Origin: Sacculina carcini | Lineage: Eukaryota; Arthropoda; Thecostraca; Sacculinidae | Direction: 5' to 3' | Assembly (NCBI GenBank): GCA_916048095.2 | Contig: OU696574.1 | Coordinates: 6,235,587 to 6,299,586, forward strand | Length of the DNA: 64,000 nt | In this document: positions 2,363-51,069 of the stretch, in pieces | Numbering within the stretch: position 1 is the stretch's first letter | Layout of the letters: each line of letters starts with the position of its first letter | The notes under the pieces: model-generated | Told to the model about the DNA's origin: nothing | Database searches by the model: none | The model's input: only the letters and a program-made list of their open reading frames with translations | Program-made: the position numbers and the translations under genes

Positions 2363-2374
2363 AGCTATTTCGGC
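2363..2374 (+). promoter_or_regulatory. Putative primer binding site: complement of tRNA-Phe nt 1-12
   Basis: AGCTATTTCGGC directly follows the terminal CA of the 5' LTR, where a primer binding site must lie. Its reverse complement, GCCGAAATAGCT, equals the first 12 nt of eukaryotic tRNA-Phe(GAA) as I recall it. There is no TGG motif, so a tRNA 3' CCA end cannot pair. The identical 12-mer occupies the same place in elements 2, 3 and 5. Confidence 0.75.
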
Positions 2375-2378
2375 TATC

Positions 2379-3116
2379 ATGGCAAGTCGGAATATCGAAG
2401 AAGGAATTGTCAGCGGGAATTCGTCTCTGGATATCCGACTCATCCCAGAATATGACGGCAAAGGTGACCCGTCAGAACGGCTAGGCAAAGTCAGAAAGAT
2501 GTGTAGACTGAGAGGCGTCAATGACGTAGCGACAGTTGTCATGATGAGATTGACTGGAAACGCTTATGCCGTTGTTGACCGTCTCAGTTACGAGGACCAG
2601 TTGAACGTGGACAAAGTGTGTTCTGCATTGCAGCGAGCCTTCGGTCTTGATCCGTACACATCATTGGACCGATTTGTAGAGCGAAAACTCAGGGATGACG
2701 AAGTTTTCGACGTTTTTGCATCAGAATTGGAGAAATTGGGTGCCAATTGCGGAATCACAGGAGATCTTACGTTGACGTGTGCGTTTCTCAGAGGCCTACC
2801 GGTCAGAGTGCGGGAAGTTTTAAGAGCCAACGCGAATCTAGAAGGGATGAAATTCAATTTCGTCATCGAGAGGGCCCGTACTATTTTGTCGGACTTGGAT
2901 AGCGCAAGCACCACCTCCGTGTCAGATTATTCGTTTGGAGCGACCCTGAAATGCTTCCATTGTGGACGCGCAGGCCACATATCGAGGAATTGTAAGTCTA
3001 GGAAACCGGTTGAAATCGTATGCTATCGCTGCGGAGAAAAAGGACACGTTCAAGCGGTATGTACGTTAAACGAGAAGGAGAGGTGGTGTGCGCCAGCCTC
3101 CTCTCCAACTCAGTGA
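2379..3116 (+). CDS. gag: Gag of element 1
   Basis: 245-residue capsid/nucleocapsid protein with its ATG only 4 nt after the putative primer site. The N-terminal two thirds is a helical retrotransposon-gag (capsid) domain (around RLIPEYDGKGDPSERL and FVERKLRDDEVFDVFASELE). Two CCHC zinc knuckles follow near the C-terminus, CFHCGRAGHISRNC and CYRCGEKGHVQAVC, for RNA packaging. The frame is intact and overlaps pol; a -1 shift at 3065-3071 would make Gag-Pol. It is about half identical to the Gag of element 3 by eye, more distant from those of elements 2, 4 and 5. Confidence 0.9.
   Translation: MASRNIEEGIVSGNSSLDIRLIPEYDGKGDPSERLGKVRKMCRLRGVNDVATVVMMRLTGNAYAVVDRLSYEDQLNVDKVCSALQRAFGLDPYTSLDRFVERKLRDDEVFDVFASELEKLGANCGITGDLTLTCAFLRGLPVRVREVLRANANLEGMKFNFVIERARTILSDLDSASTTSVSDYSFGATLKCFHCGRAGHISRNCKSRKPVEIVCYRCGEKGHVQAVCTLNEKERWCAPASSPTQ
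3065..3106 (+). promoter_or_regulatory. -1 frameshift signal: G TTA AAC plus hairpin
   Basis: GTTAAAC is in gag phase (G TTA AAC) at 3065-3071, and the pol frame opens through it. After a 5-nt spacer, GGAGAGG (3077-3083) pairs perfectly with CCTCTCC (3100-3106). The heptamer plus a spaced hairpin is the classic -1 programmed frameshift layout. G UUA AAC is not the most canonical heptamer, but an arterivirus uses it (recalled). Confidence 0.75.
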
Positions 3117-6033
3117 ACCAGGCGCTGGTGACCGTAGTTGCCAAAGTGAATGATGTGTCATGTCGCGTACTAGTTGACACCGGGTGCACGAGAAGTTTGG
3201 TGCACAAATCATTGTGTGGAAACAAAATCATGCAGATGAGAAATGATGTGTACGCCATGAACGGTGGAATGATTCGATGCGTCGGGCAGAGCAACATCGT
3301 GTTGGATGTACACGGAAAGGCAGTTGCGCTCACTGCTATTGTTGTCGCAGACCCGTTGTTTGGTCACCAATTTGTGCTCGGACTGGACGCGGTGGCTCTG
3401 CTCGGAGGTCTGTTTTTGTCAGCCAAATTGGAGTCGACGTTTGGTGTAGCATGCGGGTTCCATTCTGAGCCACTCGAAGAGAATATTCCCGATGCTCAGA
3501 GATGCAGTGAACTCGAGGTCGAGGGAAAATATTTTTCAGCGGAATTTCATTCTTCGCTGTGCCGATGGACGGCTCGCTGGAAGTGGTCTGGTGAACCTCC
3601 TGACCTCCCAAATAAAACAGCATAGTACCCAATGAAATATGACGTTCGGTCATGCTACGAAGACGAGGTGAGGTCGTGGATAGAAGAGAGTTGGTTGATG
3701 GAACACAGCGTTGGTAAGCACGGCGATGCTAGAGGACTCATACCCCTAATGGCTGTAGTACAGGCGAATAAATCGAAAGTGAGGCCTGTGCTCGATTTTC
3801 GGCAGATGAATCAGCACATCACATCCTACACAGCCGAGTCAGACGTGTGTGCGCAAAAGCTGCGTGAGTGGCGGAGGTGTGGCGACAATGTGGCCCTGCT
3901 CGACTTGAAGAAGGCGTATCTTCAGATACACATCGATCCGAGCCTGTGGAAGTTCCAGACGGTGATTTTTGGGGGGAAGAGGTACTGTCTCACGCGCCTA
4001 GGCTTCGGGCTGAATGTGGCGCCAACTATATTGAAGTCTGTGGTGCAATGTGTACTTGAACAAGACAAGAAAGTCAAAGAGGCGGTCTCAGTGTATGCTG
4101 ATGACATATTGGTGAATGAGAGTGTACTCAAGGCTCATCGTGTAGCAGATCACTTCCGACGCTACGGCCTGGAGTGCAAAGGTGAAAATCGAGCAGAAGA
4201 CGGCATGCGAGTTTTGGGACTTTTATTGAGGAAAGAACATGGGGAACTGAGGTGGTGCAGAGATAACAGAATATCAGAACCACCGGTACCATTAACCCGT
4301 CGCAGTCTGTTCTCCTTCTGTGGTCGAGTGGTTGAGCATCTCCCAATCTGCGGATGGATGCGTCCAGCAGTGTCGTTCTTGAAACGTGTGGCCAACGAAT
4401 CATGCAATGGATGGGATGATATCATCGATAACGCCAGACTCTCCTCGCTGGTGAGCGACTTGGCAGCCCGCATTGAGGATAACGATCCGGCTCGAGGTGT
4501 CTGGAAGGTGTCAGGAGAGAAGGCAGTTGTGTTGGTCGACGCTAGCCAGTTAGCCGTTGGAGCTGTGGTTCAAGTGAACGGTGAAATCATAGAGGACGGA
4601 AGTTGGCTACGCGGTAAAAGCGCCGCCCACATAAGTCTTGCTGAACTTGAGGCGTTGTTGAAGGGTCTCAACATGGCCGTAGTGTGGCGGATGAGTGAGA
4701 TATCATCCAAGACTGACTCGAAAACCGTTTTCCACTGGGTCAGTGACACAATGAGTGGACTAACGCGGGTCAAAACCAAAGCAGCCAGCGAGCTCCTCAT
4801 CCGTAGAAGGCTGGAAACTCTGAAGTCGGTGCGAGACGAGCTGGGTCTCAAGTTGTCTGTGTCTCTAGTGTCTACGTCAAAAAACTGGCTGATCGTTTGA
4901 CTCGTCTGCCTCGTTCGTGGACAAGAATTGGTGAGGCTGCCGGCGCAGTGATATCCGAAAATTCCCGGACCCCCGCAACACTCACAGATGTTAAGAACAT
5001 TCACAACGACGCCGGACATCCTGGAGTTCGTCGAACGCTGTATTTTTCACGGAGACGCTTCGGAGACGCGAGGCGAAGAGACGCTGCTCAAGTCGTTCGA
5101 GAATGCGACATCTGTAAGGCTATTGATCCTGCGCCCATCAAATGGCCCGGCGGACAACTATCTGTAGGTGAGACGTGGAAGAGAATTGCGCTGGATGTTA
5201 CGCATTAACAAGGTCATCACTACCTGACGCTGATCGACTGCGGCCCATCACGCTTCGCCATCTGGAGGAAGCTGGCCTCCGAGACCGCATCTTGCGTTGT
5301 GTCCCATCTGCAAAGCGTATTTTTTGAACGCGGCGCTCCGTCAGAATGTCTTGTGGACAATGGCACCAAGTTTCGCAGTGGCGAGTTCAGGCGATTGCTG
5401 CACGAGTGGAACGTGTCCGTGTGGTTTCGGTGCGCATATAGACCACAAGGAAATGCCATTGTCGAGAGGAGCCATAGAAGCGTGAAAGTGATAGCGGCAA
5501 GGAAGCGGTGTTCGATACAGGAGGCGGTGTATCGATACAATGTATCACCGCAGGATGATGTCAACGAAGCATCGACACCGACTAGTCAAGTGTATCGCTA
5601 CAATGTGAAGGTGAAAAACGCCGATCACACAGCGGGCAGTGAACAACCGAGCGGAGGCTCACGCAGACGAGGAAGCGGCGACGTCGGCAACAGGGTCTGG
5701 GTCAGACGAGCCGGAGCAAGATGTGATTCTCATTCTTCGCCCGGTGTGGTCACCTCGCAAGTGTCAGATCATTCCGTGGAAGTTGACGGCATTCCGATCC
5801 ATGTGAGAGACATCAGACCGCGTGGTGGGGCAACATCCGTGGACCAGGAAGGCCGGGCGTCCCAAGGTGATCCCGAGAGAACTGTTGAATCATCACCTGA
5901 GTCGATGTCAGCTCGCCATTCTGAAGCGGAGGCTGGTGGACAGGAACAGACTGTGAGGAGGAGCAAACGACGGAGGTGGCCTAGAACGTGTGCGACTTGT
6001 GATTCCTCAGGGGTGGATGTGGTAAATGAGTGA
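3065..6033 (+). pseudogene. pol: Pol of element 1 (PR-RT-RH-IN), inactivated
   Basis: Read in the -1 frame relative to gag. Protease: LVDTGCTRSLV. RT: VRPVLDFRQMN, DLKKAYLQIHID and a YADDILVN catalytic box. RNase H: VLVDASQLAVGAV. Integrase: an HH-CC zinc region (HNDAGHPGV...CDICKAIDPAP), then the catalytic core with DCGPSRF, LVDNGTKFRS and NAIVERSHR. Disruptions: in-frame TAG at 3623-3625, a small indel near 4880-4886 that shifts frame, and TAA at 5206-5208. The last codons run into the 3' LTR. Each break is an ordinary decay mutation, because elements 2-5 read through the same positions. Confidence 0.88.
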
Positions 6034-6432
6034 TGGTAGTCGCGAAGCAGCGTTGGCGTTATGCGCGTGCGTTCGTCCTTGAAACGGGCGCGTATGAGTG
6101 ATAGCAGAGCGAGCGGTGGAAAGAGCGTTGTGTTGCAACGGGTGTCAGACGTCATGCGGTACATTGCCATGGTGACGATGGTGCCGTGCGCACGAGCGTA
6201 TTGCGTATGTATGTGTGTCTGTAGTTTGGCGAGCGACTGGATGAGGCAGTGTGTGTTGGGGGAGCGAGGCGTCGTGTGTGGTGCTGTTTGCGAGAAGTGT
6301 TGTGTCGCGAGTAGTGTTGTATTGTGAATAGTGTGCGTGCGAGTAGTGTGCCTTGCGTGTAGTGCTTTGTTGTGCTGTTATTCGTGTCATATAATTTTTC
6401 GCGTATCGTCCCGAATACATACATCTGTTACA
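6018..6432 (+). repeat. 3' LTR of element 1
   Basis: 415 bp, begins TGTGGTAAATGAG after a CAGGGGTGGA purine-rich stretch that may be the polypurine tract, and ends CTGTTACA before the TSD AGATG. Confidence 0.93.
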
Positions 6433-7637: not shown

Positions 7638-7967
7638 TGTAGTTTGATGTGTATAGTTGACCGATTTCGTCATTCAGTTGCATTCAGTGTTGCATATAAT
7701 CGGAATGAATGGTTCTGCAAATGTTTGCGCGTTGTTGTGTGCATGTGTGTGTGTATGTGCTTGTGTGTATGTGCGAGCCTGTGCGCGTGTGCGTATGTGC
7801 AATCGGATCGCTTGGAATAGAATTTGCAGGACGCTTTTGCAATGTGGAAAATGACGTGCGTCAGTGGAGCTTGGGGTGTTGCGAGTGTGAGAGGTGGTAT
7901 GGTGAATACGGAGTGATAGAGTTGTTGCTGGTGAATACATTTTTTTCGTTCCTTTGTTCAGCCTACA
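7638..7967 (+). repeat. 5' LTR of element 2
   Basis: 330 bp, TGTAGTTTGATG to CAGCCTACA; contains a GT-rich tract (about 7734-7800). Matches 15785-16114 except for about two substitutions. Confidence 0.93.
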
Positions 7968-7979
7968 AGCTATTTCGGC
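7968..7979 (+). promoter_or_regulatory. Putative primer binding site: complement of tRNA-Phe nt 1-12
   Basis: AGCTATTTCGGC abuts the LTR end. The 3' LTR copy is followed by GCGGATTC instead, so the 12-mer belongs to the internal region and not to the LTR. Confidence 0.75.
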
Positions 7980-7995: not shown

Positions 7996-8720
7996 ATGGC
8001 TGGAATTGTGAAATGCGACATGGTGAAGCCTTTCACAGGCGAGGGCAACGTGGTGGCTTGGTTAAAAAAGTAAATTTGGTGGCCAAACTAACGAAGGTCA
8101 CTGATTTGGCAAGCTTCTTGCCTCTCTATCTGGAGGATGACGCTCTGGCGGTCTATCTGGAGATGGATGAAGAGGCTCAGAATGACGTCGATGCGATTCA
8201 AACGCGATTGAAGGAGGCGTTCAGTGATGATGCGTTCGTGGCGTTCGGGAAGCTATCCGAGAGGAAGTGGGGTGGCGAGTCAGTCGACGCCTATGCCAAT
8301 GAGCTGCGGCGTCTGGCTGGACTGGCTCGCTTCGACAAAGCTGCGCTGGAGCATATTGTGAAGCTCTGTTTTGTTAATGGGTTTCCCGACGACGTCAGTT
8401 CGATCTTGCGCCGCATCGATGATGTCATGAGCCTCTCGATGAGTGTGCTGATAGGGCACGCAAGAGTACTGACTACGAATGGACATACCTCTCATGGTGG
8501 ACATGCTGCTGTTGCTCTGAAAGCCGGAAGGAGTGCACAAAGTAGCGGACGTGGAAAAGGGAGCCGAATTCCGTCAAGACCGAAGGTGGGTGGGTGCTTT
8601 CGATGTGGTGGCGCGCACTTCATCCGGGACTGTACTGAGAAGACGGTGGTGTGCTTTAAATGTGGCCAGAGCGGTTATATTTCAGGTGAGTGTCCCAACC
8701 AGAATTCGGAAAACTCCTAG
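7996..8720 (+). pseudogene. gag: Gag of element 2, frameshifted
   Basis: The ATG at 7996 opens a frame (MAGIVKCDMVKPFTGEGNVV) that hits a stop just after a six-A run near 8064-8069. The rest of Gag is open in the next frame to 8720. Comparison with the intact Gag of element 4 (GDGDVVAWLKTATLVAKL) shows that an indel at the A run is the defect. The remainder has the capsid domain and two knuckles, CFRCGGAHFIRDC and CFKCGQSGYISGEC; in the second the usual His-flanking Gly-His is Gly-Tyr, so one zinc ligand is replaced. Gag overlaps the start of pol. Confidence 0.85.
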
Positions 8721-8748
8721 GGGGCGGTGCGTGCGCCAGCAGCCGCCC
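8708..8748 (+). promoter_or_regulatory. -1 frameshift signal: G GAA AAC plus hairpin
   Basis: GGAAAAC at 8708-8714 lies in gag phase; after 7 nt, GGGCGG (8722-8727) pairs perfectly with CCGCCC (8743-8748). The gag stop at 8718-8720 lies in the spacer. The P-site slip GAA to GGA is imperfect, but the A-site AAC matches all the relatives. Confidence 0.65.
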
Positions 8749-10028
8749 TTCTTACCGTCAGGCGCCTCATGCACAGTTACCCATCATTGATGTTGTTCTT
8801 GGGGATACACACACCAAAGGTCTGATAGACACTGGGTGCTCTACAAGCGTTGTTCATGAGAAATACGTGTCACAGACTGATGGTACGGTGTTCGTGCAAG
8901 CTTTTGAAGGGAGTCAAATTAGGTGTACATATGCTGATGATGTGGCACTAGTTCTGAACGGAAGGTGTATCCGACTGAGAGTCGTTGTTGCTGATCGGCT
9001 GATTGAAGGTGTGGATGTCATTGTCGGGCTTGATGTCATCAATTTGATGGGGGGCGTTACGATCACTCAACAAGGTGTTAGTTTTTCCGGGTGTAAAGTT
9101 GCAGTGGCCGGTGGTAGCCAACGCGAGTCGTGTATGAGTCGTGAAGATGTCAGCAGCTCGGCACGATTCACTATAGATGACGCTGACTTCAGTGCTGATT
9201 TTGATGGTGAGAGGTGGACCGTGAAGTGGCGGTGGAAGAATGACATGCCAGTTGAGGTGAAAAATCAAGTGGGCAGCTATGGTGCAGGAAAGGATGATCG
9301 AGTCAAGGAAGAGTTCGACAAAGAAGTGCAAAGATGGATTTCAGAGGGAATTTTACTGGCATGGGATGGTGCTGTTTCAGGGGTGATTCCGCTGATGGCC
9401 GTAAATCAGCCACAAAAACGTAAAATCCGTCCAGTGCTAGATTTTCGCGAATTGAACGCAAACATCGAGTGTCATACGGGTGACGATTTCACCGATGTTT
9501 GCGAGGAAAAGCTGAGAAAATGGCGACGAGTGGGAGACAAAGCAGCGATATTAGACCTTAAATCTGCATATTCACAGTTGGGAATTCACAAAGAGCTGTG
9601 GAAATACCAGTTAGTCGAGTACAAGGGTAAAATTTTCTGTCTGACGCGTCTTGGCTTCGGCTTAAGTTCGGCTCCGCGAATCATGTCGAAAATTTTGAAG
9701 ACAATCTTGGACACGAACGAAGCTGTCGGGCGCGGAACAAGTTCATATATTGACGACATACTGGTAAATGAAGCTATAGTCTCTACAGCGGACGTGAGCA
9801 AGCACTTGAAGGCGTTTGGTTTGATTGCGAAACCAGCGGAGTCGCTCGATGGTGGATCGGTGTTGGGGCTGCAGCTGACGCGCTCCGGTGACCAGCTGGT
9901 ATTTCGGAGAGGTAACATCGTTCCTGAATTTCCTGAAGTGTTGACCAGAAGGAAGTTATTCTCCATCTGTGGCATGCTAGTGGGGCACTACCCGGTAGCT
10001 GGGTGGCTGCGAGTGGCGTGTAGCTATA

Positions 10029-10259
10029 TGTTGTTGTAATTTCTGCGAGGTGCCGTTGTGATGTTTATCACGAGAGTTATTGATTTAAATGTAGTGTAAT
10101 TTAAACTGTCTTGAATTTATCGATTAAACGAGGATTTTGGTATTTTTGGTGTGGGTGTTTGAAGTGGGGATTGGTGTTTTTGTTTTTGTTTTTGATATTT
10201 TTTGTGTGAGGGGATTGCTCCGTATTTTTCGTGTTTTTGGCTTGAATATATTTGCCACA
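10029..10259 (+). repeat. 5' LTR of element 3
   Basis: 231 bp, TGTTGTTGTAATTTC to TTTGCCACA. It contains a T/G-rich 40-bp segment that is missing from the 3' LTR. Confidence 0.93.
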
Positions 10260-10271
10260 AGCTATTTCGGC
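10260..10271 (+). promoter_or_regulatory. Putative primer binding site: complement of tRNA-Phe nt 1-12
   Basis: AGCTATTTCGGC abuts the LTR. The next bases (GTCATG) differ from those in elements 1 and 2 (TATC, TATT), so conservation stops exactly where the tRNA 5' end would stop. The gag ATG follows at 10275. Confidence 0.78.
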
Positions 10272-10274
10272 GTC

Positions 10275-11030
10275 ATGACTAAAGTTGAGGATGACTCGCG
10301 GATTGTCGAGAAGGAATTAGATCTGCGATTAATTCCAGAATTTGGCGGGAAAGGTGACGTCACTGACTGGCTATGCAAGGTAAAGAAGATGTGCAGACTT
10401 CGAAAGGTCGCAGATGTTGCTACCGTCATACAGATGAGATTATCTGGAGACGCCTACGCTGTAGTAGACCGGCTTTCCGATGGTGATCAACTTGACGTAA
10501 GTAAAGTCAGCGATGCATTGGTTCGAGCCTTCGGAGCAGATCCTTTCTCCTCATATGAGGCACTCATGTCGCGCACATTGATGGGTGGAGAATCTGCGGA
10601 TGTTTATTTGGCGGATGTTGAAAAATTGGCCGGCAGGTGCGGCATTACAGGTGACCTTCCACTCAAATGCGCGTTCATATGTGGTCTTCCGGAGAGTGTG
10701 AGGCATATCCTGCGCGCCAACACCAAGTTGGACGATATGCCACTGGAGCAAGTGCTGGAGCGTGCACGCGTGATTCTGTCTGATGAACGGAGACTGGCGG
10801 AATCGAGCAGTGCTATGTGCGCAGGTGGCCGAACTTTGTCAAGGGAGAATCAGCCAGTGCGCTGTTTCAACTGTGGCAAGATGGGACACGTGTCTAGAAT
10901 GTGTAATAAAGACAGACAGCCCATGGTGTGTTACAAGTGCGGCAAACAAGGCCACATCGCTGTAAGGTGTCCGGAACAGGGAAACGCGAAGGGGGGAGAG
11001 ACGTCAGCGCCGGTCTCTTCTCGTCAATGA
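10275..11030 (+). CDS. gag: Gag of element 3
   Basis: 251 residues. The capsid-like domain (LDLRLIPEFGGKGDVTDWL, KKMCRLRKV, LSGDAYAVVDRL) is followed by two canonical CCHC knuckles, CFNCGKMGHVSRMC and CYKCGKQGHIAVRC. The start is the ATG at 10275, four nt after the primer site. It overlaps pol at the frameshift signal and stops at 11028-11030. Intact. Confidence 0.92.
   Translation: MTKVEDDSRIVEKELDLRLIPEFGGKGDVTDWLCKVKKMCRLRKVADVATVIQMRLSGDAYAVVDRLSDGDQLDVSKVSDALVRAFGADPFSSYEALMSRTLMGGESADVYLADVEKLAGRCGITGDLPLKCAFICGLPESVRHILRANTKLDDMPLEQVLERARVILSDERRLAESSSAMCAGGRTLSRENQPVRCFNCGKMGHVSRMCNKDRQPMVCYKCGKQGHIAVRCPEQGNAKGGETSAPVSSRQ
10979..11020 (+). promoter_or_regulatory. -1 frameshift signal: G GGA AAC plus hairpin
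   Basis: GGGAAAC (10979-10985) in gag phase is a canonical slippery heptamer, also used at a betaretroviral gag-pro junction (recalled). After a 9-nt spacer, GGAGAGAC (10995-11002) pairs with GTCTCTTC (11013-11020), an 8-bp stem with one G-U pair. Confidence 0.82.
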
Positions 11031-13933: not shown

Positions 13934-14124
13934 TGTTGTTGTAATTTCTGCGAGGTGCCGTTGTGATGTTTATCACGAGAGTTATTGATTCAAATGTAGT
14001 GTAATTTAAACTGTCTTGAATTTATCGATTAAACGGGGATTTTGGTATTTTTGGTGTGGGTGTTTGAAGTGTGAGGGGATTGTTCCGTATTTTTCGTGTT
14101 TTTGGCTTGAATATATTTGCCACA
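13934..14124 (+). repeat. 3' LTR of element 3, 40 bp shorter than the 5' copy
   Basis: 191 bp; begins TGTTGTTGTAATTTC right after GGGGGGAG and ends TTTGCCACA. It lacks the T/G-rich block found at about 10164-10203 of the 5' LTR. Confidence 0.93.
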
Positions 14125-15784: not shown

Positions 15785-16114
15785 TGTAGTTTGATGTGTA
15801 TAGTTGACCGATTTCGTCATTCAGTTGCTTTCAGTGTTGCATATAATCGGAATGAATGGTTCTGCAAATGTCTGCGCGTTGTTGTGTGCATGTGTGTGTG
15901 TATGTGCTTGTGTGTATGTGCGAGCCTGTGCGCGTGTGCGTATGTGCAATCGGATCGCTTGGAATAGAATTTGCAGGACGCTTTTGCAATGTGGAAAATG
16001 ACGTGCGTCAGTGGAGCTTGGGGTGTTGCGAGTGTGAGAGGTGGTATGGTGAATACGGAGTGATAGAGTTGTTGCTGGTGAATACATTTTTTTCGTTCCT
16101 TTGTTCAGCCTACA
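15785..16114 (+). repeat. 3' LTR of element 2
   Basis: 330 bp, TGTAGTTTGATG to CAGCCTACA, followed by TSD GCGGA. Confidence 0.93.
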
Positions 16115-22200: not shown

Positions 22201-23251
22201 TGGTTCCGTCTGCTGCAATGGGGCTTTCAGTACTGGCTTTCAATCTGACATTCTTCAAATGTTTCATGATGTCCGTGCCGGCGACTGTAATGTCTGCTCC
22301 GGTATCTGGAAGAGCCGACACACGAATTTGACCCCCAAGCACGACGTCCACCTTTGGTGCTTTTACAGTGGTTACGTGTGAAACGACTGCTGCAGAGACA
22401 CGGTCGTTATCTGTACATTTCTGATGCGTCTTTTTGTGTGTGCTAATCACGCTACGGCACTTGATTTCGAAATGACCAAATTTACCGCACCGTTTGCATT
22501 GTTTTCCGAGCGCTGGACATTTTTCGCTCGCTTGATGGCGACGTCCGCATCTTGTGCACTCGTTCGTGTCCCTTCCTGTGCGCCTATCATGTGTCACAGT
22601 GGGGTGCCTATGGTGCACTTTATTGACGTGAGTATCCCGACTGTTTTCGATCAAATCTGTGTCGCGGTTGGCTGCCTCTTCAGCTCTGCATATCTCAACG
22701 GCTGTAGATAGCGTTAGATTTTTCACGCTGCAAAGTTTTTTCACTGTTGCTGTGTCTCTGACACCGACGACGATGCGATCGCGGATCAAGGAATCCCGGC
22801 ATTGGTCACAGAAATTGCAAGTGGTGCTCATCTCTCGGAGGCTGATCAAAAAATCTTCGAAGCACTCGCCAATTTTCTGAGAGCGGCCGTTGAAGTTTTT
22901 CCGTTCGATGACTTCGTTTACCTGGCCTTTTGCATACTCTGCCAGCATACGAACGATGACGTCGATGTTGTCTTTGTCGTTTTCATCTATTTGGAAATTT
23001 CTCACTGTTCTCAGCGTTTCATCGCTAAGGCACGATCGAAGTACTGCGGCCTGCATTTTTCTGGGTTGGTTTTGAAGACCGGTCAATAGCACATAATCTT
23101 CCCAACGATCTTTCCACACGAAAAATGACTCGCTCCGGTCAACACTCAGGTCCAGTTTTTCGGGCATAGGGACTCTCCCGGCCCATACTGACGTTTGAGA
23201 CGGCTGCATCTGATGAGACGAGCTTGCTGTGTCAACTGTCGGCTGCGCCAT
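19112..23251 (-). CDS. gag-pol: Gag-Pol polyprotein of element 6
   Basis: A single 1379-residue frame without frameshift. Gag contains two Cys-rich knuckles, CTRCGRRHQASEKC and CKRCGKFGHFEIKC (about 232-265), in the spacing usual for Mag-clade elements. The protease has LPDTGADITV (DTG at 316-318). RT: GGVRLCVDLTKLN and VDDVIIYG (about 611-618). RNase H: RTDASRLHGLGFVL. Integrase: a HAGHAGKEKT...CKKC zinc region, then the catalytic Asp in VDFAEY, YSDGGPQFTS and the Glu in NGRAEAAV. The start is the ATG at 23251-23249, of which only the A is in the LTR. The C-terminus reads into the 3' LTR. Confidence 0.93.
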   Translation of the reverse strand: MAQPTVDTASSSHQMQPSQTSVWAGRVPMPEKLDLSVDRSESFFVWKDRWEDYVLLTGLQNQPRKMQAAVLRSCLSDETLRTVRNFQIDENDKDNIDVIVRMLAEYAKGQVNEVIERKNFNGRSQKIGECFEDFLISLREMSTTCNFCDQCRDSLIRDRIVVGVRDTATVKKLCSVKNLTLSTAVEICRAEEAANRDTDLIENSRDTHVNKVHHRHPTVTHDRRTGRDTNECTRCGRRHQASEKCPALGKQCKRCGKFGHFEIKCRSVISTHKKTHQKCTDNDRVSAAVVSHVTTVKAPKVDVVLGGQIRVSALPDTGADITVAGTDIMKHLKNVRLKASTESPIAADGTKMRSMGVFQTTISIGNASTTVDITVVEGVHGLLLSWHVCRELRLIPVNYPVQMSPCMPCETAHQVNQMKSHSYDIFSEFADVFSDEIKVLTGETFKIKLREDVIPHSVSAPRRVPLPLQAGLKDEIQQLQEQGIISPVTEPTDWCSPIVVTPKKNGGVRLCVDLTKLNKCVKRELFQSGTPSECVASIIASEAKFFAVFDAKKGYHQCPLDADSQALTTFITPNGRYMFKRAPYGISSISDHYNRRMDESLEGLPGIQRLVDDVIIYGRTKQELQTRVRSFLLRCREKSITLNITKAQYMQTQCKFAGFVLNAEGYSIDPDLYEAIAQFPVPTDVTGLRSFFGLCNQIGSFSPELSKRLTPLRDLLSAKRVFVWENHHTECFKRAREALSSPTILKYFQQDAPTFLRTDASRLHGLGFVLQQKQDDGKLCVIQCGSRFLTDAESRYAAIELELLAIVWAFRKCRMFLSGLQHFEVITDHRPLVPILNSKSVDDLANPRIQRLRLRLEELGPFSAQWTPGKDHAAADALSRFPVSSVAAPGEMGEEFSIIATISTDAAISDVELRKLHDISASDAEMKMLRKNIMEGFPTRKCDVDPIISRYWPVHEHLYIDDDFIFYGRRLVIPAGMRKEILQELHAGHAGKEKTKQRARDIVYWPGIDVDIDNITKHCKKCQVYLPSQPKETIRHHEKPTRPFEHVSVDFAEYGSHKFVVLVDHLSGWQFVNDLGQTSVTNKLLSTLRTIFCMVGVPVILYSDGGPQFTSGEFHQFVNKWKISHVRSSPHYPQSNGRAEAAVKSAKALIKKCWCEEKKQLNEHDWCRGILQQRNTPGPDGRSPAEILYGRPVRDFIPAHRRQFQGMWQQSNEQIEKREQDRIMKTDEKYNQSARDLSDIATGSHVAIQCHITKEWNRHGIVIEQLPHRRYLIKMASGRVVARNRRHVRRRHGHVNQDSAENGQRTHIAPTSDEAEKEQAEGQLRRSSRNTRRPQRLIEVMSMTRGACVSERSSMSHRICGVDEPVEPKLVTKGVLVCV
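23236..23250 (-). promoter_or_regulatory. Primer binding site of element 6, overlapping the start of gag
   Basis: Directly after the LTR the minus strand reads TGGCGCAGCCGACAG. TGG at this place is a normal PBS start pairing with a tRNA CCA end. The first nine nt fit tRNA-Ser(UGA) as I recall it; the rest does not clearly fit, so the tRNA is uncertain. Confidence 0.55.
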
Positions 23252-30112: not shown

Positions 30113-30114
30113 TA

Positions 30115-30199
<85 letters not shown>
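30113..30199. repeat. (TA)n microsatellite, right of Penelope-like element 1
   Basis: Nearly pure TATATA tract directly after the element. Confidence 0.95.
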
Positions 30200-30202
<3 letters not shown>

Positions 30203-30408
30203 AAGCATTAACCGGGAATAATGAGATAATATTATGGAGAAAAATTCATTTATATACTAAAAAAATCATTATTATTTTGTGTTTACATTTCGAAATTATT
30301 CCTGACGACGGGTGGCGTCTAAGTATGAGGCGGGTTGACCGAATAATATGTCGTCAATTATTAGAATAAGAATATGCAAACTCAGAACAACAATTTTCTA
30401 TTGGTTTA
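30200..30408 (+). repeat. Helitron-like unit A, segment before element 7
   Basis: No gene. Matches, inverted, the sequence at 38160-38329, including GACGACGGG, TGAGGCGGGTTGA and TTTTCTATTGGTTTA. Confidence 0.7.
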
Positions 30409-34654: not shown

Positions 34655-34673
34655 AATCCCATCCTCGTCGCCA
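34655..34673 (-). promoter_or_regulatory. Primer binding site of element 7: tRNA-Ser(GCU) 3' end
   Basis: The minus strand reads TGGCGACGAGGATGGGATT three nt after the LTR. This is complementary over 19 nt, CCA included, to the 3' end of tRNA-Ser(GCU) as I recall it (...AATCCCATCCTCGTCGCCA). Confidence 0.85.
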
Positions 34674-38329: not shown

Positions 38330-38578
38330 TGTAGTGTTGTCCAATAGGCACACAACAAGCCTACACACACAGCTATCGTTCATCACCATATTTGGAAGTG
38401 TTCATCGTGTCACCCAGTGTTCAGTGTATGTATCGTGTATGCGTGTATGTGTGTATGTCACAACTGTGACCCTTGTTACAGACAGTCTGATGCTAGCCTC
38501 GCTTGGGTTTACTTCAATATAACCACTCGGGTGTTCTGTGTGTTTCTCGCCAATCAGAGGCGACACAAGAACATTACA
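38330..38578 (+). repeat. 5' LTR of element 8
   Basis: 249 bp, TGTAGTGTTGTCC to AAGAACATTACA. Confidence 0.93.
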
Positions 38579-38581
38579 TTT

Positions 38582-38591
38582 TGGCGACGAG
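38582..38591 (+). promoter_or_regulatory. Primer binding site of element 8 (tRNA-Ser-like)
   Basis: TGGCGACGAG begins three nt after the LTR; the ten nt match the start of the element 7 site, complementary to a tRNA ending CTCGTCGCCA. The following bases (TCTTTCC) do not match tRNA-Ser(GCU). Confidence 0.65.
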
Positions 38592-38624
38592 TCTTTCCTA
38601 CGCGGATATTTTATTTTGTCCATC

Positions 38625-40019: not shown

Positions 40020-40030
40020 GTGAGGGGATA

Positions 40031-40277
40031 TGTAGTGTTGTCCAATAGGCACACAACAAGCCTACACACAGCTATCGTTCATCACCATATTTGGAAGTGT
40101 TCATCGTGTCACCCAGTGTTCAGTGTATGTATCGTGTATGCGTGTATGTGTGTATGTCACAACTGTGACCCTTGTTACAGACAGTCTGATGCTAGCCTCG
40201 CTTGGGTTTACTTCAATATAACCACTCGGGTGTTCTGTGTGTTTCTCGCCAATCAGAGGCGACACAAGAACATTACA
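40031..40277 (+). repeat. 3' LTR of element 8
   Basis: 247 bp, TGTAGTGTTGTCC to AAGAACATTACA; lacks one CA dinucleotide of the 5' copy. Confidence 0.93.
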
Positions 40278-43930: not shown

Positions 43931-44285
43931 TGTGGTTTTGAGATGTATTAGATGACCGAATACGAATGAGGTTGAACAATGCGATGAGACAGAAAACAAA
44001 CAATTAATACAATAAAAACTTCACCTGCAAATTCTCACAATTCAACAGCTAAAAGCGCTCCACGCTCGCAACAATAACCGCTCCACGCTCACGCCACACA
44101 CTCCACCACCGCACTGCCCCATTACTTCTCGCACCCTCTAAGCCCCGCCCATTGATCACATACATATAATCAGCTATCACACTGGTAACGCCATCTAACG
44201 ACAATATACACAACGTGTCTCCTCATCACTCTATACATAAACACAAATAGTCATATAACCAAAGCGTCTACACGGCAAAACCACA
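43931..44285 (-). repeat. 3' LTR of element 4
   Basis: 355 bp; plus-strand ends TGTGGTTTTGAGATG and GGCAAAACCACA. Confidence 0.93.
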
Positions 44286-44307: not shown

Positions 44308-47278
44308 CTACGCCGTGTAGTCGCTCATCCACTCAGGAGCCCGCCTTTCTCTTCCGGACCGACGAGGAAGTCGATCACTTCCCGGCTCATGGTCAACCTG
44401 TTCACCTCCGACAGCTTGATCTTCTTGCTTGATCTTCAGCTTGCTCCAGTCTTCAGTTTCGCCGATCGTCTCAACAACAACAGGACGTATATCCAAAACA
44501 TGACGTGGAATGCCATCAACCGACACATTATTCCGCGAATGAACACCAGTCACGGTACCCCTGTTCCATTGTGAAGTGCACCGTCTGTCCGCCGGCTTCA
44601 CCCATACTTCTTCACCAATTTCCACCGAACATCTCTCTTGGTTGCTCTCTGATGTAGTCTCTATGCATGGATGCCGCCACTCATAGTTATGCACATTACG
44701 ATGAGGAATAGACGTGAGCTCCACACCAACTCTGGGTGACACATTGTACCAAAACACGGCCGTTGTTGGTGGTACCTGTGCTCTCTCAGCAAGCGCTTTT
44801 ATGGTGCGGTGATGGCGCTCGACGATACCATTGCCGCTTGGGCGGTATGCAGCGCGATAAAATGGCATGATTTTCCACCGCCTCATCAGCTGCTGCATTT
44901 GTTGAGACCGAAACACACTGCTATTGTCCATGAGTAATTCACATACGGGTCCTCTCTCACGAAACACTTCATCAATATTCTTGCAAACCTGTTCAGCTGT
45001 GTCATTACGAAGTTCACGCCAGACTGCGAACCTGCCAGGACCACAATCCACCATAGACAAATATTCACGGCCACGATAGTGTGTCACATCAATTGCCAAT
45101 CTTCGCCAAGGCTCACTTAGGTTCAGATGGCCTGGTGTATGAACCGCGGGTGCTGGGTCGATCGATTGGCATCGCTGACACCCTCGCACAACCCGCCGGA
45201 CAACTTCTCGCGATACAGTGGGATCCACCTGTCGTGCCAAGAATAATGTGCGGTCAACTCCCATGTGATGCATGTTGTGCATTTCTCTCACGTCGTTCAC
45301 AGATGTCATGCACACATTCAAGTTATCTTCAGGACAGCGCAACGTATTTCTCGACCGCACCGCCGGCAATCCTAGCCACTGCTTTTTAACGCGAGTTAGT
45401 ATATCCGCTTTATTTGCTGTCGTTGGAACACTGGTCACACTAACTCTCAATCCCAGCTCCGAAATCAAGTCACTCAGTATACCTAACCGTCGTTTCACGA
45501 GGATTTCGGCTGCACCCTTGGTCTTAACTCTTCTTTCTTTAGTCAACAGTATACCGACCCAACCAGCTACTGTAGCGGAATCTGTCCGAATCTCAATTTC
45601 CTCGAGCTTCCATTTCACTGCCAGATTCACTCCTTTCAACACAGCTTCTAATTCTGCAACATTGATGTGATGCACATCTTCCTTCTTCCTCTGCCACGAT
45701 GCGTCCTCGACAATATTTCCGTCAATTTCTATCGCTGCACCAATGGCAAGCATGCTGGTGTCACACCATACAATACCGTCATTAGTTTTTCGAACATGCC
45801 ATGTTCCCCCCACTGGGTCATTCGCTGTCACCCTCTCAACCATATATTTTGTCAAACGCAACACGTTATCCCCTACAACATCATCCCACTGGACACAATC
45901 AGCATGACGCTTGAGGTAGCTGCAAGCGGGCCTCAGCCATCCGGCGACGGGGTAGTGGCCGATCCACTTGCCACAAAGTGAGAACAATTGGCGTTTCGTC
46001 ATATCGTCCGGTACGGCAGGTACTACGTTCCCTCTGCGGTACACCAAATGCCCCTGCTCGCTCTCTTGCAGTTGCAACCCAAGAACAGCACTTTGCTCAA
46101 TCGGCAACGGTTCTTTGGCTTTCAGCCCATACTTGGCTAGATGGTCAACTACCGCTGCACCTGACACTATCGACTCTTGCACAACGATATCGTCTATGTA
46201 CGAATCCGTTGCTTTTTCAACCAGTGACGCTTGCTGTAGGACCGTGCGCACAATTCGGGTCATGGCTTTAGGCGCAGAACACAAGCCAAACCCCATTCTA
46301 GTCAGACAGTATATATTTCCATCATATTTCAATAATTGGTGTTTCCACAATTTTTATGCTACGTGAACCTGGAGGTACGCAGCCTTCAAATCCACGATCG
46401 ATACTGGTCCTTCTATACGTCTCCATTCTCTTAAATTTTCCCCGCATACATCAATAAAATCATCTCCAGTGTGACTGTGCAAAAAGGAGTTAAGCTCGCG
46501 GAAGTCCAATACTGGCCTAACTTTGTTCTTGGTAGGTTGAACGACCGCTAGCAATGGCAATACACCCACATTTTGCGTACCCGTCCAAGGCACCAAAATC
46601 TTCTCGTCAACCCACCTACGCACCTCGGCATCAAATTCTTCCCTCACAGCATCATCCTCTCGTAACAAACCTGTGTCAAAGTGTCCTCTCGTAACAACCA
46701 ATTTTCTTTGTTAGTACCGGATTCTGCAACTTCGTTAACCATTCGACTTCCCACCTTTCACCATCAAACAACGCGCAAAAATCTGGATCCTCGATGCTCA
46801 GATTTCGCGGACCATCATTTCTACTGTTTTTCTCACGCACATTTGGTACTGGCACGCTGTCACACTTCATCTCCATTGCACAACATGACTGTTGTCCGAA
46901 GCGAGCAGATTTCTCACTCACAGTCACTCCACCCAAATGATTGATCAAATCCATTCCAACCACAATATCAATGTTGCTAACAAGCTCATCAACCACTATG
47001 GCCTTCACTTTCACATACTCATTCTGTACTCCCACTGTAATCCACGCTTCACCTCTACACTGCACTTGTCTACCATCAAACGCGAGCATCACACATTCAC
47101 CGTCAATATATTTTACAAAGCTCGTTTTTACGACCACAGCTGAACAACCAGTATCAATCAATGCCTTCGCCTTCATCTCATCTATCGTTACGTCAATAAT
47201 TGGCAGGCCTGACGATTGCGCCATTATTGGCTCATTGGAGTGACTGCTGGCGCACAAGCCACCCCACTCAAGTTTTCC
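44308..47278 (-). pseudogene. pol: Pol of element 4 (PR-RT-RH-IN), inactivated
   Basis: Protease ALIDTGCSAVVV; RT VRPVLDFRELN, DLKAAYLQV, LTRMGFGLC and YIDDIVVQE; RNase H IVWCDTSMLAIGAAI and RTDSATV; integrase zinc region (HNMHHMGVDRT...CQRCQSIDPAP) and core (DVTHY, LLMDNSSVFRS, NGIVERHHR). Two defects: a frame change near 46690, where GTTACGAGAGGA is present twice 29 bp apart (46655-46666 and 46684-46695), and a TAA at 46354-46356 just before the RT palm. The 680-residue stretch from 46350 to 44308 is otherwise open. Confidence 0.88.
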
Positions 47279-47964
47279 GACTTGCATTCAAATGACTTGT
47301 GTCCGTCTTTTCCGCACCAATAACACACGATTGGTTTACATTTGCTACAGTAGCGTGCCATGTGAGGCCCTCCACACACGAAGCATCGTCCGGTGAATCT
47401 TCGCGGAGCAGCATTATCTCGCAGCTGTGATTCTCTGCTCCCACTGACCGCTTCACCGGCGGCCACCACATTCACGGCTCTATTAGCAGCCAACACACGG
47501 GCATGGGCAATCAGCTCGCTGGTCGTCATCTTTAAAACATTTGCTAAACGCTGAAGCGTGACTCTGATGTCGGCAGGAAAACCATTCACAAACGCGAGTC
47601 TCGTTGCATGCTCAACACCTGCATTATCGAAAATGGCCAGTCCAGCCAACCTTCTGATCTCATTGGCATATACATCAACAGATTCGCCACTCCATCTTTT
47701 CTCACACAACTTTCTATGCGCCGAGAACGCATTATCCGTGAATGCTCCAATCAGCATTTGCTGAATCTGATCAGCATTGACCTGGGCCTCTTCAGACCGC
47801 TCTAAATATAGCGCTAACGCATCCCCCTCAAGATACAGCGGAATGAAACTGGCTAGGTCAGATACACCTTGCAGCTTTGCTACCAACGTTGCTGTCTTTA
47901 ACCACGCCACAACGTCTCCATCGCCGACAAACGCCCTGATCATATCGTGAGATATTTTTGCCAT
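47224..47964 (-). CDS. gag: Gag of element 4
   Basis: 246 residues, intact. The capsid-like domain (FVGDGDVVAWLKTATLVAKL, KRWSGESVDVYANEIRRLAG) is followed by knuckles CFVCGGPHMARYC and CYWCGKDGHKSFEC; the first has the shorter CX2C-GGPH spacing also seen in elements 2 and 5. The ATG at 47964-47962 lies 3 nt after the primer site. It overlaps pol. Confidence 0.9.
   Translation of the reverse strand: MAKISHDMIRAFVGDGDVVAWLKTATLVAKLQGVSDLASFIPLYLEGDALALYLERSEEAQVNADQIQQMLIGAFTDNAFSAHRKLCEKRWSGESVDVYANEIRRLAGLAIFDNAGVEHATRLAFVNGFPADIRVTLQRLANVLKMTTSELIAHARVLAANRAVNVVAAGEAVSGSRESQLRDNAAPRRFTGRCFVCGGPHMARYCSKCKPIVCYWCGKDGHKSFECKSENLSGVACAPAVTPMSQ
47238..47278 (-). promoter_or_regulatory. -1 frameshift signal: G GAA AAC plus hairpin
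   Basis: Minus-strand GGAAAAC (47278-47272) is in gag phase, the same heptamer as in element 2. Downstream, GAGTG (47269-47265) pairs with CACTC (47242-47238), and inside it TGGC (47261-47258) pairs with GCCA (47251-47248). The outer spacer is only 2 nt and the inner one 10 nt, so this hairpin is the weakest of the five. Confidence 0.55.
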
Positions 47965-47967: not shown

Positions 47968-47979
47968 GGCCGGTTAGCT
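47968..47979 (-). promoter_or_regulatory. Putative primer binding site: complement of tRNA-Ile nt 1-12
   Basis: The minus strand reads AGCTAACCGGCC directly after the LTR. The plus strand, GGCCGGTTAGCT, equals the first 12 nt of tRNA-Ile(AAU) in vertebrates as I recall it. The five nt that are common to tRNA-Phe and tRNA-Ile (positions 8-12) are unchanged from elements 1-3 and 5, while the acceptor-stem part has changed. Confidence 0.75.
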
Positions 47980-49781
47980 TGTGGTTTTGAGATGTATTAG
48001 ATGACCGAATACGAATGAGGTTGAACAATGCGATGAGACAGAAAACAAACAATTAATACAATAAAAACTTCACCTGCAAATTCTCACAATTCAACAGCTA
48101 AAAGCGCTCCACGCTCGCAACAATAACCGCTCCACGCTCACGCCACACACTCCACCACCGCACTGCCCCATTACTTCTCCTCGCACACTCTAAGCCCCGC
48201 CCATTGATCACATACATATAATCAGTAGGGCTGTCAAAAAAGTAACCTAAAGATCATGAAAAAGTAACTTTATTTTTTAGAAAAAGTAACCTATAAAAGT
48301 AACCTAAAAATAACCTATGAGTTTCAATGTTATTATCACTTTTGTATCGCTTTATCACATGTTTATCACGCATTTGCTGATTAGTGTGCTATATGAAATA
48401 CACGGATTGTTTGTTGTTTGTTTGTGAACATAAAAAGTAACCTAATAACCTATAAAAAGTAACCTAATAACCTTTAAAAAGTAACCTAAAAACAACCTAA
48501 CTTTCGTAAAAATAACATTCAAAAAGGTCAATTTCTGTCTGCAGTTCTGAAGGAAGAAAATACACCAGTTCTTCTTTTCTATCCTCTTTCCGAGTTGATG
48601 CTATTTTTCACCATCTCTCCGATCTGCTACCATTTTTACAACAAACCACAAAAATTGACTCAACATTATTTGGCTAACATCGCAAAAAGGAGCATAACCA
48701 TCAAAATGTAATTTAAAGTGGAAAGCTAATATGTAAGTGAAATACACTAATTGCAAATGTAAATATTTTTAGTAATGGTCGCAATAATGTTCTTTATATT
48801 GTTTCAATGGAACTTTTTATCAAATAGCACGTACTACAGCTTGTATATTAGTGTGATCGTAAACACTGCATGTGTGAATGCCCCCGTCCCCCATATGTAG
48901 CACCCTGTGTTCACAGTCTTATAAATGTCAAACGTGGGAAAATGGTGCTATCTCCCGCCCTGAAAATCACGTGCTAATTCCTGTTCAAGTAAATACGTAC
49001 TGTCAAGTGCTACAGTGCAGTATCTGGTATAGAGAGCTCACACATCGTACTATACCACGCTCCAAGCATCTCACGACACCCTCCGGTTCGTGGACATTTC
49101 CTAAAATGGAATGACGCTATCCTGCGTACCCAAGAACGTATAAATAACGAGTAGCACAGATAGCACAGCAGAATATTTGACATTTCTCGATCTTCAGACC
49201 TAATATTTTTTCATTTCATTTCACGTATTTTGCGACAAGACACAAATATGAAAAATCAACACAGGATATATACATAAGGGAACTCGAAGCCTTGGGCTTG
49301 TTCTGAGTCCCCACATTCGTACAATATACACTAATACAAAGCAACACCACAGCAAATATTCCATCTCTTTTCCTATTTTATCCTCATATATACCGTTTTT
49401 GTGACTCTTATCTGCAAAAAGTCACCAAACTTTGTGGTAAACTTGCCTAATAACAAGAAAAATAACAAAAGATAACCTGACGATAAAAAAGTAACCTAAA
49501 AGCAAAAAAAGTAACCTAACGATGAAAAAGTAACTTTTGGTAACCTAATAACTTTTTAAATAATTATCGTACACAACTTTTTCATGCAGTCTTAGGCATC
49601 TTATGAAAAAGTGACCCTTAGGTGAAAAAGTAACTTTATTAACTTTTGACAGCCCTAATAATCAGCTAACACACTGGTAACGCCATCTAACGACAATATA
49701 CACAAACAACGTGTCTCCTCATCACTCTATACATAAACACAAATAGTCATATAAACAAAGCGTCTACACGGCAAAACCACA
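47980..49781 (-). repeat. 5' LTR of element 4, interrupted by an hAT-like element
   Basis: About 362 bp of LTR (47980-48225 and 49666-49781) split by the insertion at 48226-49657 plus an 8-bp duplication. Confidence 0.92.
48226..49657. mobile_element. hAT-type non-autonomous DNA transposon
   Basis: 1432 bp. Terminal inverted repeats TAGGGCTGTCAAAA / TTTTGACAGCCCTA and an 8-bp target duplication (ATAATCAG at 48218-48225 and 49658-49665). The other LTR of element 4 (ATAATCAGCTA once, about 44168) is the empty site. Many AAAAAGTAACCTAA motifs lie near both ends, probable transposase binding sites. No transposase frame is present. Confidence 0.92.
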
Positions 49782-50681
49782 AAAAGAGTGGAGTAAACCC
49801 ATAAAAGAGTCTAAATTTCTATATTTTCATATTTATTTTCACAAAATAGTTTGGCTAAACCGCCTCATATTTATACATGCCCGTCGTGCCGAATAATTCA
49901 GAACTCAGACACAAAACAATGAAAAATGACTAATTTTTTATCATACTGTTTTCAAAATATATTTATAACTCAACATCAGCATCTAGCATTAAAGCCCGCC
50001 CTTTGTGCAGAACAATAACTAAAGTAAAATGAATATTGAATTAATAAAAAATGATTAGAAATTAAAACAGAAAAAGTAAACCCATAAAAAGTCTTAACCA
50101 ATAGAAAAGTCTAAATGTGAATGTTTTTATTTTAGATGTGGCAATATATTTTCCCTCGAACTGCCTCGTATTTAAATCCGCCCGTCGTGCGTAACTATAA
50201 ATAGAATATAATGAATCAAAAAGCAAAAAGCTTATCCAATAGAAAAATATAAATTTGTAAAATATTGTTTTAATTATTGACGACGTTTTTTTCCTCAACA
50301 CTGCTCAAGTTCACACCCATCCTTCGTGTGTAGTAATTCAGAAGTGTAACACTATCAAAACAATTAAACCTTCTGTCATATCTATAATTCCAGATTTATG
50401 CGTCCGCTAAAACAGCATATTCATATAGTTGGCATTGCATGATATTACAACCCATATCCTTATGCAACTTAAGCTTATGTAACTTGAAATTAAACCAATT
50501 AAATTATCCCAGTAGTTCCCAGTAGTATTTTACCCGCCCGTCGGGCGGAACAATTCATGTGTAAATATTGAGGACAATAAAGCCTTTCTATTCAGTCTAG
50601 TGTAGCATCAATTAAACTGTACCCAATAAAACCACACCATCCATGCTTGGAGCTGATGTGATGTGATGTGATGCAATATGA
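49782..50681 (-). repeat. Helitron-like unit C, middle segment
   Basis: No gene. Continues the co-linear match to unit B (about 40960 to 42500), with five or so CCGCACGACGGG cores. An ATGTG/ATGATG run precedes element 5. Confidence 0.7.
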
Positions 50682-51057
50682 TGTGGTGTTGTATATGTGA
50701 TGCGTGTGTGTATAGCAATGTATAGCAATGTTGTGTTATGTTGTATAGCAATGTTGCAAATGTATTAGCAATGTATAGCAATGTTGATTCAGCAAAGTGT
50801 ATGTGCGTATGTGTGTATGCGTGTCTGTGCGGAATGGTGCTGCAGCGGTGTCATCTTGCAGGCGAGAGGAGACGGGTACGAGCTGAGACGAGCGGCAGTG
50901 CGGTGCAGGAGTCGAGAGTATTTGCGCGTGGTGTGTGTGCTGTATTTGCGTGTTTGCGTGTTGTTCTCTGAGACGGAATTAGCGTTGTTGTTATTCCCTT
51001 GGGTGTGTGTGTTATTTCATCATATCACCACTGCATCGTTATACAATACATACTTCA
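50682..51057 (+). repeat. 5' LTR of element 5, with expanded TATAGCAATG repeats
   Basis: 376 bp, TGTGGTGTTGTATATG to ATACTTCA. Four to five copies of TATAGCAATG-like units at 50713-50783 where the 3' LTR has one. Confidence 0.92.
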
Positions 51058-51069
51058 AGCTATTTCGGC
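51058..51069 (+). promoter_or_regulatory. Putative primer binding site: complement of tRNA-Phe nt 1-12
   Basis: AGCTATTTCGGC abuts the LTR end; the following TCCCC is unlike the sequence after the 12-mer in elements 1-3. The 3' LTR is followed by TATGATG instead. Confidence 0.77.

Follow-up and report, generated by a model that had tools for sequence, protein, structure and literature searches.

The window analysed here, a stretch of 64,000 nucleotides (nt) from Sacculina carcini (GenBank assembly GCA_916048095.2, contig OU696574.1, positions 6,235,587 to 6,299,586 of the forward strand), contains five elements bounded by long terminal repeats (LTRs), numbered E1, E2, E3, E5 and E8, whose primer site appears complementary to the 5' end of a transfer RNA (tRNA). 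The site is proposed to pair with the first 12 nt of a host tRNA (tRNA-Phe for most of the families, tRNA-Ile(AAT) for other families), which would be cleaved in the manner of Tf1 to give the primer, a reading to which we assign a probability of roughly 0.8. The 5' LTRs and the primer sites beside them are listed below.

1946..2362, + strand: E1 5' LTR (TGTGG...TTACA), 99% identical to 6018-6432, target duplication AGATG on both sides
2363..2374, + strand: E1 primer site AGCTATTTCGGC, putatively complementary to tRNA-Phe nt 1-12
7638..7967, + strand: E2 5' LTR, 99.4% identical to 15785-16114, target duplication GCGGA
7968..7979, + strand: E2 primer site AGCTATTTCGGC, exact 12-mer
10029..10259, + strand: E3 5' LTR, matches 13934-14124, target duplication CTATA
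10260..10271, + strand: E3 primer site AGCTATTTCGGC, exact 12-mer
50761..51057, + strand: E5 5' LTR, 98% identical to 54891-55188
51058..51069, + strand: E5 primer site AGCTATTTCGGC, exact 12-mer
47980..48225, - strand: E8 5' LTR, 98.4% identical to 43931-44173
47968..47979, - strand: E8 primer site AGCTAACCGGCC, complementary without mismatch to host tRNA-Ile(AAT) nt 1-12

The 12-mer AGCTATTTCGGC occurs exactly on the + strand at 2363, 7968, 10260 and 51058, where the original prediction had placed it directly after the 5' LTRs of E1, E2, E3 and E5, and each copy adjoins the CA end of its LTR. When up to one mismatch was allowed the window gave four matches against 0.15 expected, a number reached by none of 100 shuffled sequences. 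The genome of 264 Mb contains 2021 exact copies (1005 forward and 1016 reverse), compared to five (2 + 3) for the same pattern read backwards. Sixty further copies, places 9 to 68 of the genome listing, unselected and all on contig C1, were fetched and the bases preceding them were read. CA precedes the 12-mer in all 60 copies and ACA in 56; in two of them (L311 and L315) the CA is part of a short stretch behind a site of the tRNA-Ile type and not the LTR end itself. Single-linkage clustering of the 25 nt upstream gave 30 clusters, the largest being a mixed AT-rich group of 16 copies, and ARAGORN identified no tRNA gene among the 60. The base immediately before the 12-mer is A in 60 of 60 copies, while pairing with C13 of the tRNA would need G, which sets the upstream bound of the site at nt 12. 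The further claim that these 12 nt are under selection by themselves has to be qualified, because the primer site is recopied from the primer in every cycle.

The site was also examined with reference to DUF7047 (PF23088), a domain which is matched above cut-off in all five elements beside reverse transcriptase (RT) and RNase H matches. Sixty segments were sampled from the best-scoring DUF7047 sites in the genome (150 scored of 1957 candidates), and the exact 12-mer was present 1.8-2.2 kb upstream of the domain in 42 of these, with a copy carrying one or two mismatches in a further six.

The tRNA-Ile site and the switching of the proposed primer tRNA

E8 lies on the minus strand, did not figure in the original list of elements, and carries AGCTAACCGGCC where the others carry AGCTATTTCGGC. 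The genome contains 402 copies of AGCTAACCGGCC compared to 22 of the reversed pattern. Thirty of these loci were read, of which two are host tRNA-Ile(AAT) genes, identified by ARAGORN, that start with GGCCGGTTAGCT, the complement of the site; CA precedes the site in 27 of the 28 remaining loci, behind several quite different upstream sequences. Pairing of the E8 site was scanned against 27 distinct host tRNA strings, a retrieved part of the tRNA set in which some strings differ only at the ends set by ARAGORN. All 12 nt of the site, at an offset of 0 from the LTR, pair with tRNA-Ile nt 1-12, the next best host tRNA giving 6 nt, and the chance that a given 12-mer equals one of 27 tRNA 5' ends is approximately 1 in 600,000 (27/4^12).

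The acceptor stem of the host tRNA-Ile contains a G5-U68 wobble, the complement of the 5' strand reading ACCGGCC and the 3' strand ACTGGCC. The E8 site reads ACCGGCC, indicating that it pairs with the 5' strand of the tRNA and is no copy of the CCA side. For tRNA-Ile the sequence establishes that the site is complementary to the first 12 nt of a gene of the host, and the corresponding pairing with tRNA-Phe is very likely.

The history of the two sites was examined using a maximum likelihood tree of 37 protease-RT segments, 19 with the Phe site and 18 with the Ile site. These were obtained from 55 candidates, 18 of which (11 Ile and 7 Phe) were dropped for a pol match shorter than 180 amino acids (aa), and of loci L001-L008 only L004 and L007 entered. 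The Phe/Ile label needs two changes on this tree, both forced by well-supported branches, suggesting that the site switched at least twice. Four of the 28 Ile loci (L057, L062, L066 and L072) contain both sites, the Ile site being followed by TGTAACA and then by the Phe site, which is intact in two loci and has one base changed in the other two. This arrangement reads as an Ile site captured later in front of an old Phe site. The four loci, including L136 (G000:C1:6827100-6827400), which is a second fetch of L057, apparently belong to a non-autonomous family without a pol match in which the primer switch is visible. The original idea of pairing with a tRNA 5' end is strongly supported by the identity of the Ile site with the complement of the tRNA-Ile gene, by the repeated switching and by the variable base described in the next section.

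No third tRNA was found among the 18 sampled DUF7047 segments lacking an exact Phe site when 40 tRNA 5' ends, 11 taken from host loci and 29 others, were compared with them; six gave the Phe site with one or two mismatches, and twelve gave nothing. One candidate for a third site type, AGCTA(G/A)TCCAGT, had three instances among the places listed of 252 matches (L318-L320) and was dropped. The three share a repeat of approximately 100 bp containing TACAAGCTA(G/A)TCCAGT...CATGGG, which mimics the primer-site pattern, and in L318, for which alone 5.6 kb was fetched, neither paired LTRs flanking the site nor a long pol-like open reading frame (ORF) were seen.

Proposed priming mechanism and competing explanations

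The base at position +1, next to the end of the site that pairs with tRNA nt 1, was compared across 143 sites in 25 groups of near-identical copies, formed without positions +1 to +3. Position +1 segregates in 8 of the 25 groups, which are not all independent, while any other position does so in at most 3. The mean pairwise difference is 0.266 at +1 compared to 0.065 at +2 and 0.047 at +3, and none of the 57 remaining positions exceeds 0.107. In two families retrieved by patterns that left the site unspecified, +1 was 18 A, 14 T and 2 C in the first (n = 34, site intact in 31) and 20 C, 9 G, 1 A and 1 T in the second (n = 31, site intact in 28). In ordinary tRNA priming plus-strand synthesis stops inside the tRNA, so no variable +1 base is expected; a variable base would be explained if plus-strand synthesis ran off the 5' end of the primer and added an untemplated base. 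Alternatively, the variation could come from base -1 of unprocessed tRNA, if that base varies.

Since the site abuts the LTR edge and the +1 base varies, we infer that the site acts in priming, by the following steps. The element RNA would invade the tRNA acceptor stem and the first bases of the D stem, forming a 12-bp duplex, after which the element RNase H, or less likely a host nuclease, would cut the tRNA after approximately nt 12 and leave a 5' fragment with a 3'-OH. This fragment would be extended by the RT into U5 to give minus strong-stop DNA. Plus-strand synthesis would then copy the LTR and the fragment, run off at tRNA nt 1 and often add one untemplated base, and the second strand transfer would use the 12-nt copy. 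The host tRNA 5' end would fill the role that in Tf1 belongs to the start of the element mRNA. It is only slightly more probable than the contrary that the whole animal DUF7047 group primes with the first 12 nt of a host tRNA cut by its own RNase H, swaps tRNAs by 5'-end capture and writes the untemplated base in some cycles.

Ordinary priming from a tRNA CCA end was not recognised, against the retrieved host tRNAs, in any of the five elements. The original prediction had stated that no TGG is present, which is literally wrong. TGG occurs within 18 nt after the site in E1, E2, E5 and E8, always inside ATGG (5 to 18 nt), with a second TGG at 22 in E2, and only E3 has none in the 25 nt after the site. 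In E1, E2, E3 and E5 the first 30 nt beyond the LTR pair over no more than 6-7 nt with the 27 retrieved host tRNA strings, CCA included. CCA-end sites were recognised in three other elements of the window.

23236..23250, - strand: E4 CCA-end primer site TGGCGCAGCCGACAG, 3' end of host tRNA-Ser(TGA/CGA), 12 nt beyond TGG
34655..34673, - strand: E6 CCA-end primer site TGGCGACGAGGATGGGATT, 3' end of host tRNA-Ser(GCT), 16 nt beyond TGG
38582..38591, + strand: E7 CCA-end primer site TGGCGACGAG, 3' end of host tRNA-Ser(GCT) over 9-10 nt (9 nt with TGG)

E4, with a Ty3/gypsy-type pol, and E6, of the RT_RNaseH type, have a Ty3/gypsy-type RNase H and gave no DUF7047 match in the ORFs scanned. Complementarity to a tRNA anticodon arm, as in copia and Ty5, was likewise not found, the E8 site pairing with nt 1-12 of tRNA-Ile.

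The same primer could be made by the host, a 5' tRNA fragment produced by a tRNA-fragment RNase or by RNase P being captured ready-made and then used for priming. This is a possible but doubtful alternative. Known host cuts fall mostly in loops (the D loop and the anticodon loop), while nt 12/13 lie in the D stem of the folded tRNA, and a cut at that position is easier to understand once nt 1-12 are paired with the element RNA. Ty5, however, is described as using a tRNA 3' end made by RNase P cleavage (PMC5371799), and the sequence fits a cut by the host as well as one by the element. A split contact, in which the tRNA 5' end anneals at the site while priming by the CCA end takes place at a second, separate site, has a precedent in the bipartite tRNA contacts described for Ty1 and Ty3 (PMC5371799) but is improbable here. 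The LTR boundary, which is set by the primer 3' end, lies at the site in all five window elements and the further copies are uniformly preceded by CA; the 30 nt after the LTR offer only the short pairing given above, and a split contact does not predict hypervariability of +1 at the tRNA 5' end.

Self-priming of the Tf1/sushi type, in which the element mRNA supplies the primer from its 5' end, would agree with the length of the primer (11-12 nt), with its place and with the presence of RNase H. The 5' LTRs of all five elements, however, hold at most 4-6 nt of the required primer sequence, no more than shuffled LTRs do, and self-priming does not explain why the site corresponds exactly to the 5' end of a host tRNA, making this the most improbable of the explanations considered. 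The original prediction had named self-priming and a CCA-end site further downstream as examples of findings that would overturn it, and neither was seen in the sequence of the window elements. There is also a very small chance that the 12-mer has another role, as an antisense target for tRNA fragments or as a packaging or translation element, and that priming occurs elsewhere. The 12-mer does lie just upstream of the gag start codon, but it abuts the LTR end although the distance from site to gag differs among elements, and the 30 nt after the LTR contain no other candidate for a primer site.

Several observations weigh against priming by the tRNA 5' end. No primer site was seen in 12 of the 60 sampled DUF7047 segments; two of these (L084 and L129) match each other, one (L124) partly matches its siblings, and nine match no other segment. 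It is costly to open the acceptor stem when the tRNA is folded. The +1 base is invariant in 17 of the 25 groups and its counts share descent, some of the groups being sub-groups of one LTR family and not 25 independent measurements. Covariation of the site with tRNA 5' ends among related elements, which the original prediction had put forward as a check, was seen for nt 1-7; it is limited to these positions, as nt 8-12 (UAGCU) are identical in tRNA-Ile and tRNA-Phe and are uninformative. The 12-nt bounds of the site agree with the proposed fragment ending after nt 12, but the primer could be 10 nt long if integrase trims two bases.

The host tRNA-Phe gene, finally, was not found in the searchable assembly by searches with its 5' half and its anticodon arm. 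Human tRNA-Phe, used as a query, retrieved two 3' halves only (L009 and L010), and neither the first 40 nt of tRNA-Phe nor a D-arm pattern gave any match. Many other tRNA genes were found in the same genome, and the Rfam tRNA search, which scored 63 of 15,013 candidates, is no census. Because every animal needs tRNA-Phe, its absence was treated as a limit of the search or of the assembly, for example an assembly gap or an intron, and not as a refutation. The pairing expects a host tRNA-Phe that starts with GCCGAAATAGC (GCCGAAATAGCU). The assignment to Phe rests on the start of tRNA-Phe in human and other animals, GCCGAAATAGCT, and on the genomic 3' half L009, whose end TTTCGGC pairs with GCCGAAA. 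Both tRNA-Phe-like halves (L009 and L010 around 1501) start at nt 38; base 37 of tRNA-Phe is modified, and the halves could derive from reverse-transcribed tRNA stopped at that base. L010 adjoins jumbled pol fragments of the DUF7047 type. Two other searches gave candidates that were rejected: an anticodon-arm pattern of tRNA-Phe with four matches, all tRNA-Cys, and a GCCGAAATAGCTYRR pattern with 57 matches, none having C13, of which one ending in TTAG (L135) lacked a tRNA shape when inspected by eye.

The choice of primer is one of the steps that define how retroelements replicate. The modes known to us use the tRNA CCA end, a cut or internal tRNA, or a self-primer, and if the proposed mechanism is true the 5'-end mode would be a further one. 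Both tRNA priming and priming by a cut RNA are known, whereas the extreme 5' end of a tRNA is not known to be used; no report of such priming was found among the titles and abstract openings listed in searches of the open PubMed Central (PMC) literature. The sites resemble those of ordinary CCA-end elements, such as E4, E6 and E7, in being complementary to a host tRNA beside the 5' LTR, but those pair with the tRNA 3' end from TGG onwards and these with the 5' end. The closest likeness is to Tf1 of Schizosaccharomyces pombe and to sushi, where a very short primer is likewise derived from the 5' end of an RNA, beside the 5' LTR and presumably freed by RNase H (11 nt in Tf1 and 12 here). In Tf1 the first 11 bases are described as pairing with the site and RNase H as cutting between bases 11 and 12 (PMC7175516). 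Unlike in Tf1/sushi, the primer RNA here would be a host tRNA and not the element mRNA, and the LTRs lack the primer sequence. Half-tRNA priming of the copia/Ty5 kind, which is also described for Osser, Bryco, Gymco-II and Bianca of plants, is similar in that a cut tRNA gives a new 3'-OH; those elements are reported to use a tRNA half or an anticodon-loop cut (PMC5371799, PMC6317226), unlike nt 1-12 here, and the pol order here, RT-RNase H-integrase, is unlike that of copia. LTR elements without an ordinary primer site are also represented by fungal GalEa, which is described as having a palindromic hairpin but lacking any putative site complementary to a tRNA (PMC5445492), unlike the present elements. 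Cryptococcus neoformans Tcn2-5 are mentioned as having possibly novel priming (PMC7175516).

If true, priming by the 5' end might link tRNA priming with self-priming, either of which could have arisen from the other. It could allow elements to escape the 3' tRNA fragments described as targeting ordinary LTR elements (PMC7472051), and it would explain some calls of 'no primer binding site' by programs that seek TGG and tRNA 3' ends.

Coding regions and other features of the window

The remaining parts of the five elements are listed below, with domain matches from Pfam.

2379..6030, + strand: E1 coding region, protease and integrase matches below the curated cut-off
2379-3113, + strand: E1 gag with two CCHC knuckles
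3014-3622, + strand: E1 protease-like ORF, below cut-off
3626-4897, + strand: E1 RT, DUF7047 and RNase H
5209-6030, + strand: E1 integrase-like ORF, below cut-off
6018..6432, + strand: E1 3' LTR, pairs with the 5' LTR
15785..16114, + strand: E2 3' LTR, pairs with the 5' LTR
10275-11027, + strand: E3 gag with two CCHC knuckles
10910-13894, + strand: E3 pol ORF of 995 aa with protease-like, RT, DUF7047, RNase H, H2C2 and integrase segments (also from motifs and the RT-RNase H fold); protease and RVT_1 below cut-off
13934..14124, + strand: E3 3' LTR, 40 nt shorter than the 5' LTR
51084-51863, + strand: E5 gag
51635-53599, + strand: E5 pol, protease-like, RT, DUF7047 and RNase H
53603-54211, + strand: E5 integrase-like ORF
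54891..55188, + strand: E5 3' LTR, pairs with the 5' LTR
46679-47287, - strand: E8 protease-like ORF, below the curated cut-off
44311-46353, - strand: E8 DUF7047, RNase H and integrase ORF, integrase match below the curated cut-off
43931..44173, - strand: E8 3' LTR, pairs with the 5' LTR

LTR pairs are present in all five elements and 5-bp target duplications in three (E1, E2 and E3); no duplication was found when one was sought at E5 and E8. E3 sits inside the DUF7047 segment of E2, which is split between 8690-10036 and 14111-14767. The zf-CCHC match passes its cut-off in E1 and E3 and not in E2, E5 or E8, while protease-like matches lie below cut-off in E1, E3, E5 and E8, with none in the E2 ORF. 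Integrase passes in E3 only, where the order protease, RT, RNase H and integrase is seen within one ORF, and in E5 only DUF7047 and RVT_3 pass. From the gag knuckles, protease, RT-DUF7047, RNase H and integrase, the five were classified as LTR retrotransposons of the retrovirus/Ty3 type.

The fold predicted for the RT-DUF7047-RNase H region of E3 had a mean predicted local distance difference test (pLDDT) score of 88.8. It matched the RTs of Moloney murine leukaemia virus and xenotropic murine leukaemia virus-related virus (MMLV/XMRV), cauliflower mosaic virus (CaMV), Ty3 and foamy virus at similar Z (22-23). In our reading of the model, DUF7047 (model residues 233-293) forms a run of three helices between the palm and RNase H, in the position of the thumb. 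The similar Z values and the thumb-like DUF7047 indicate that the predicted enzyme is an ordinary RT of the retrovirus/Ty3 type. In an alignment of the DUF7047 group (32 rows, query included), the putative catalytic residues of RNase H, assigned from the motif, are either invariant or show conservation of at least 90%. A total of 665 homologues were obtained, with identities of 49-73% among the 120 listed, and those named in the list include proteins from Trichinella, Trichuris, Amphibalanus, Petrolisthes and Macrobrachium. No relatives of the elements were found in viral contigs; the 14-mer CAAGCTATTTCGGC occurred there in at least 120 stretches, which were taken as chance matches.

Outside these elements, E7 (38330-40277), an LTR element of 1.9 kb, has two ORFs, one protease-like and the other lacking any Pfam match, and is presumably non-autonomous. 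A TRIM9-like exon matched unnamed proteins for the most part; the named matches come mainly from arthropods, the best at 35-39% identity. The repeats at 27835-28550 and 35693-36163 contain a GC-rich stretch (such as CCGCACGACGGGCGGGTT), followed in some copies by ...CTAG, and resemble Helitron 3' ends. Two tandem arrays with units of 8-14 bp lie approximately 1.6 kb apart at 28411-28600 and 30076-30270. Common repeats with a spacing of approximately 340-390 bp are found at 42549-43410 and 55236-56600, approximately 12.6 kb apart, with inverted copies at 16915-17754. The ORF at 23999-26632 has an RT match and a weak endonuclease match and resembles that of a long interspersed nuclear element.

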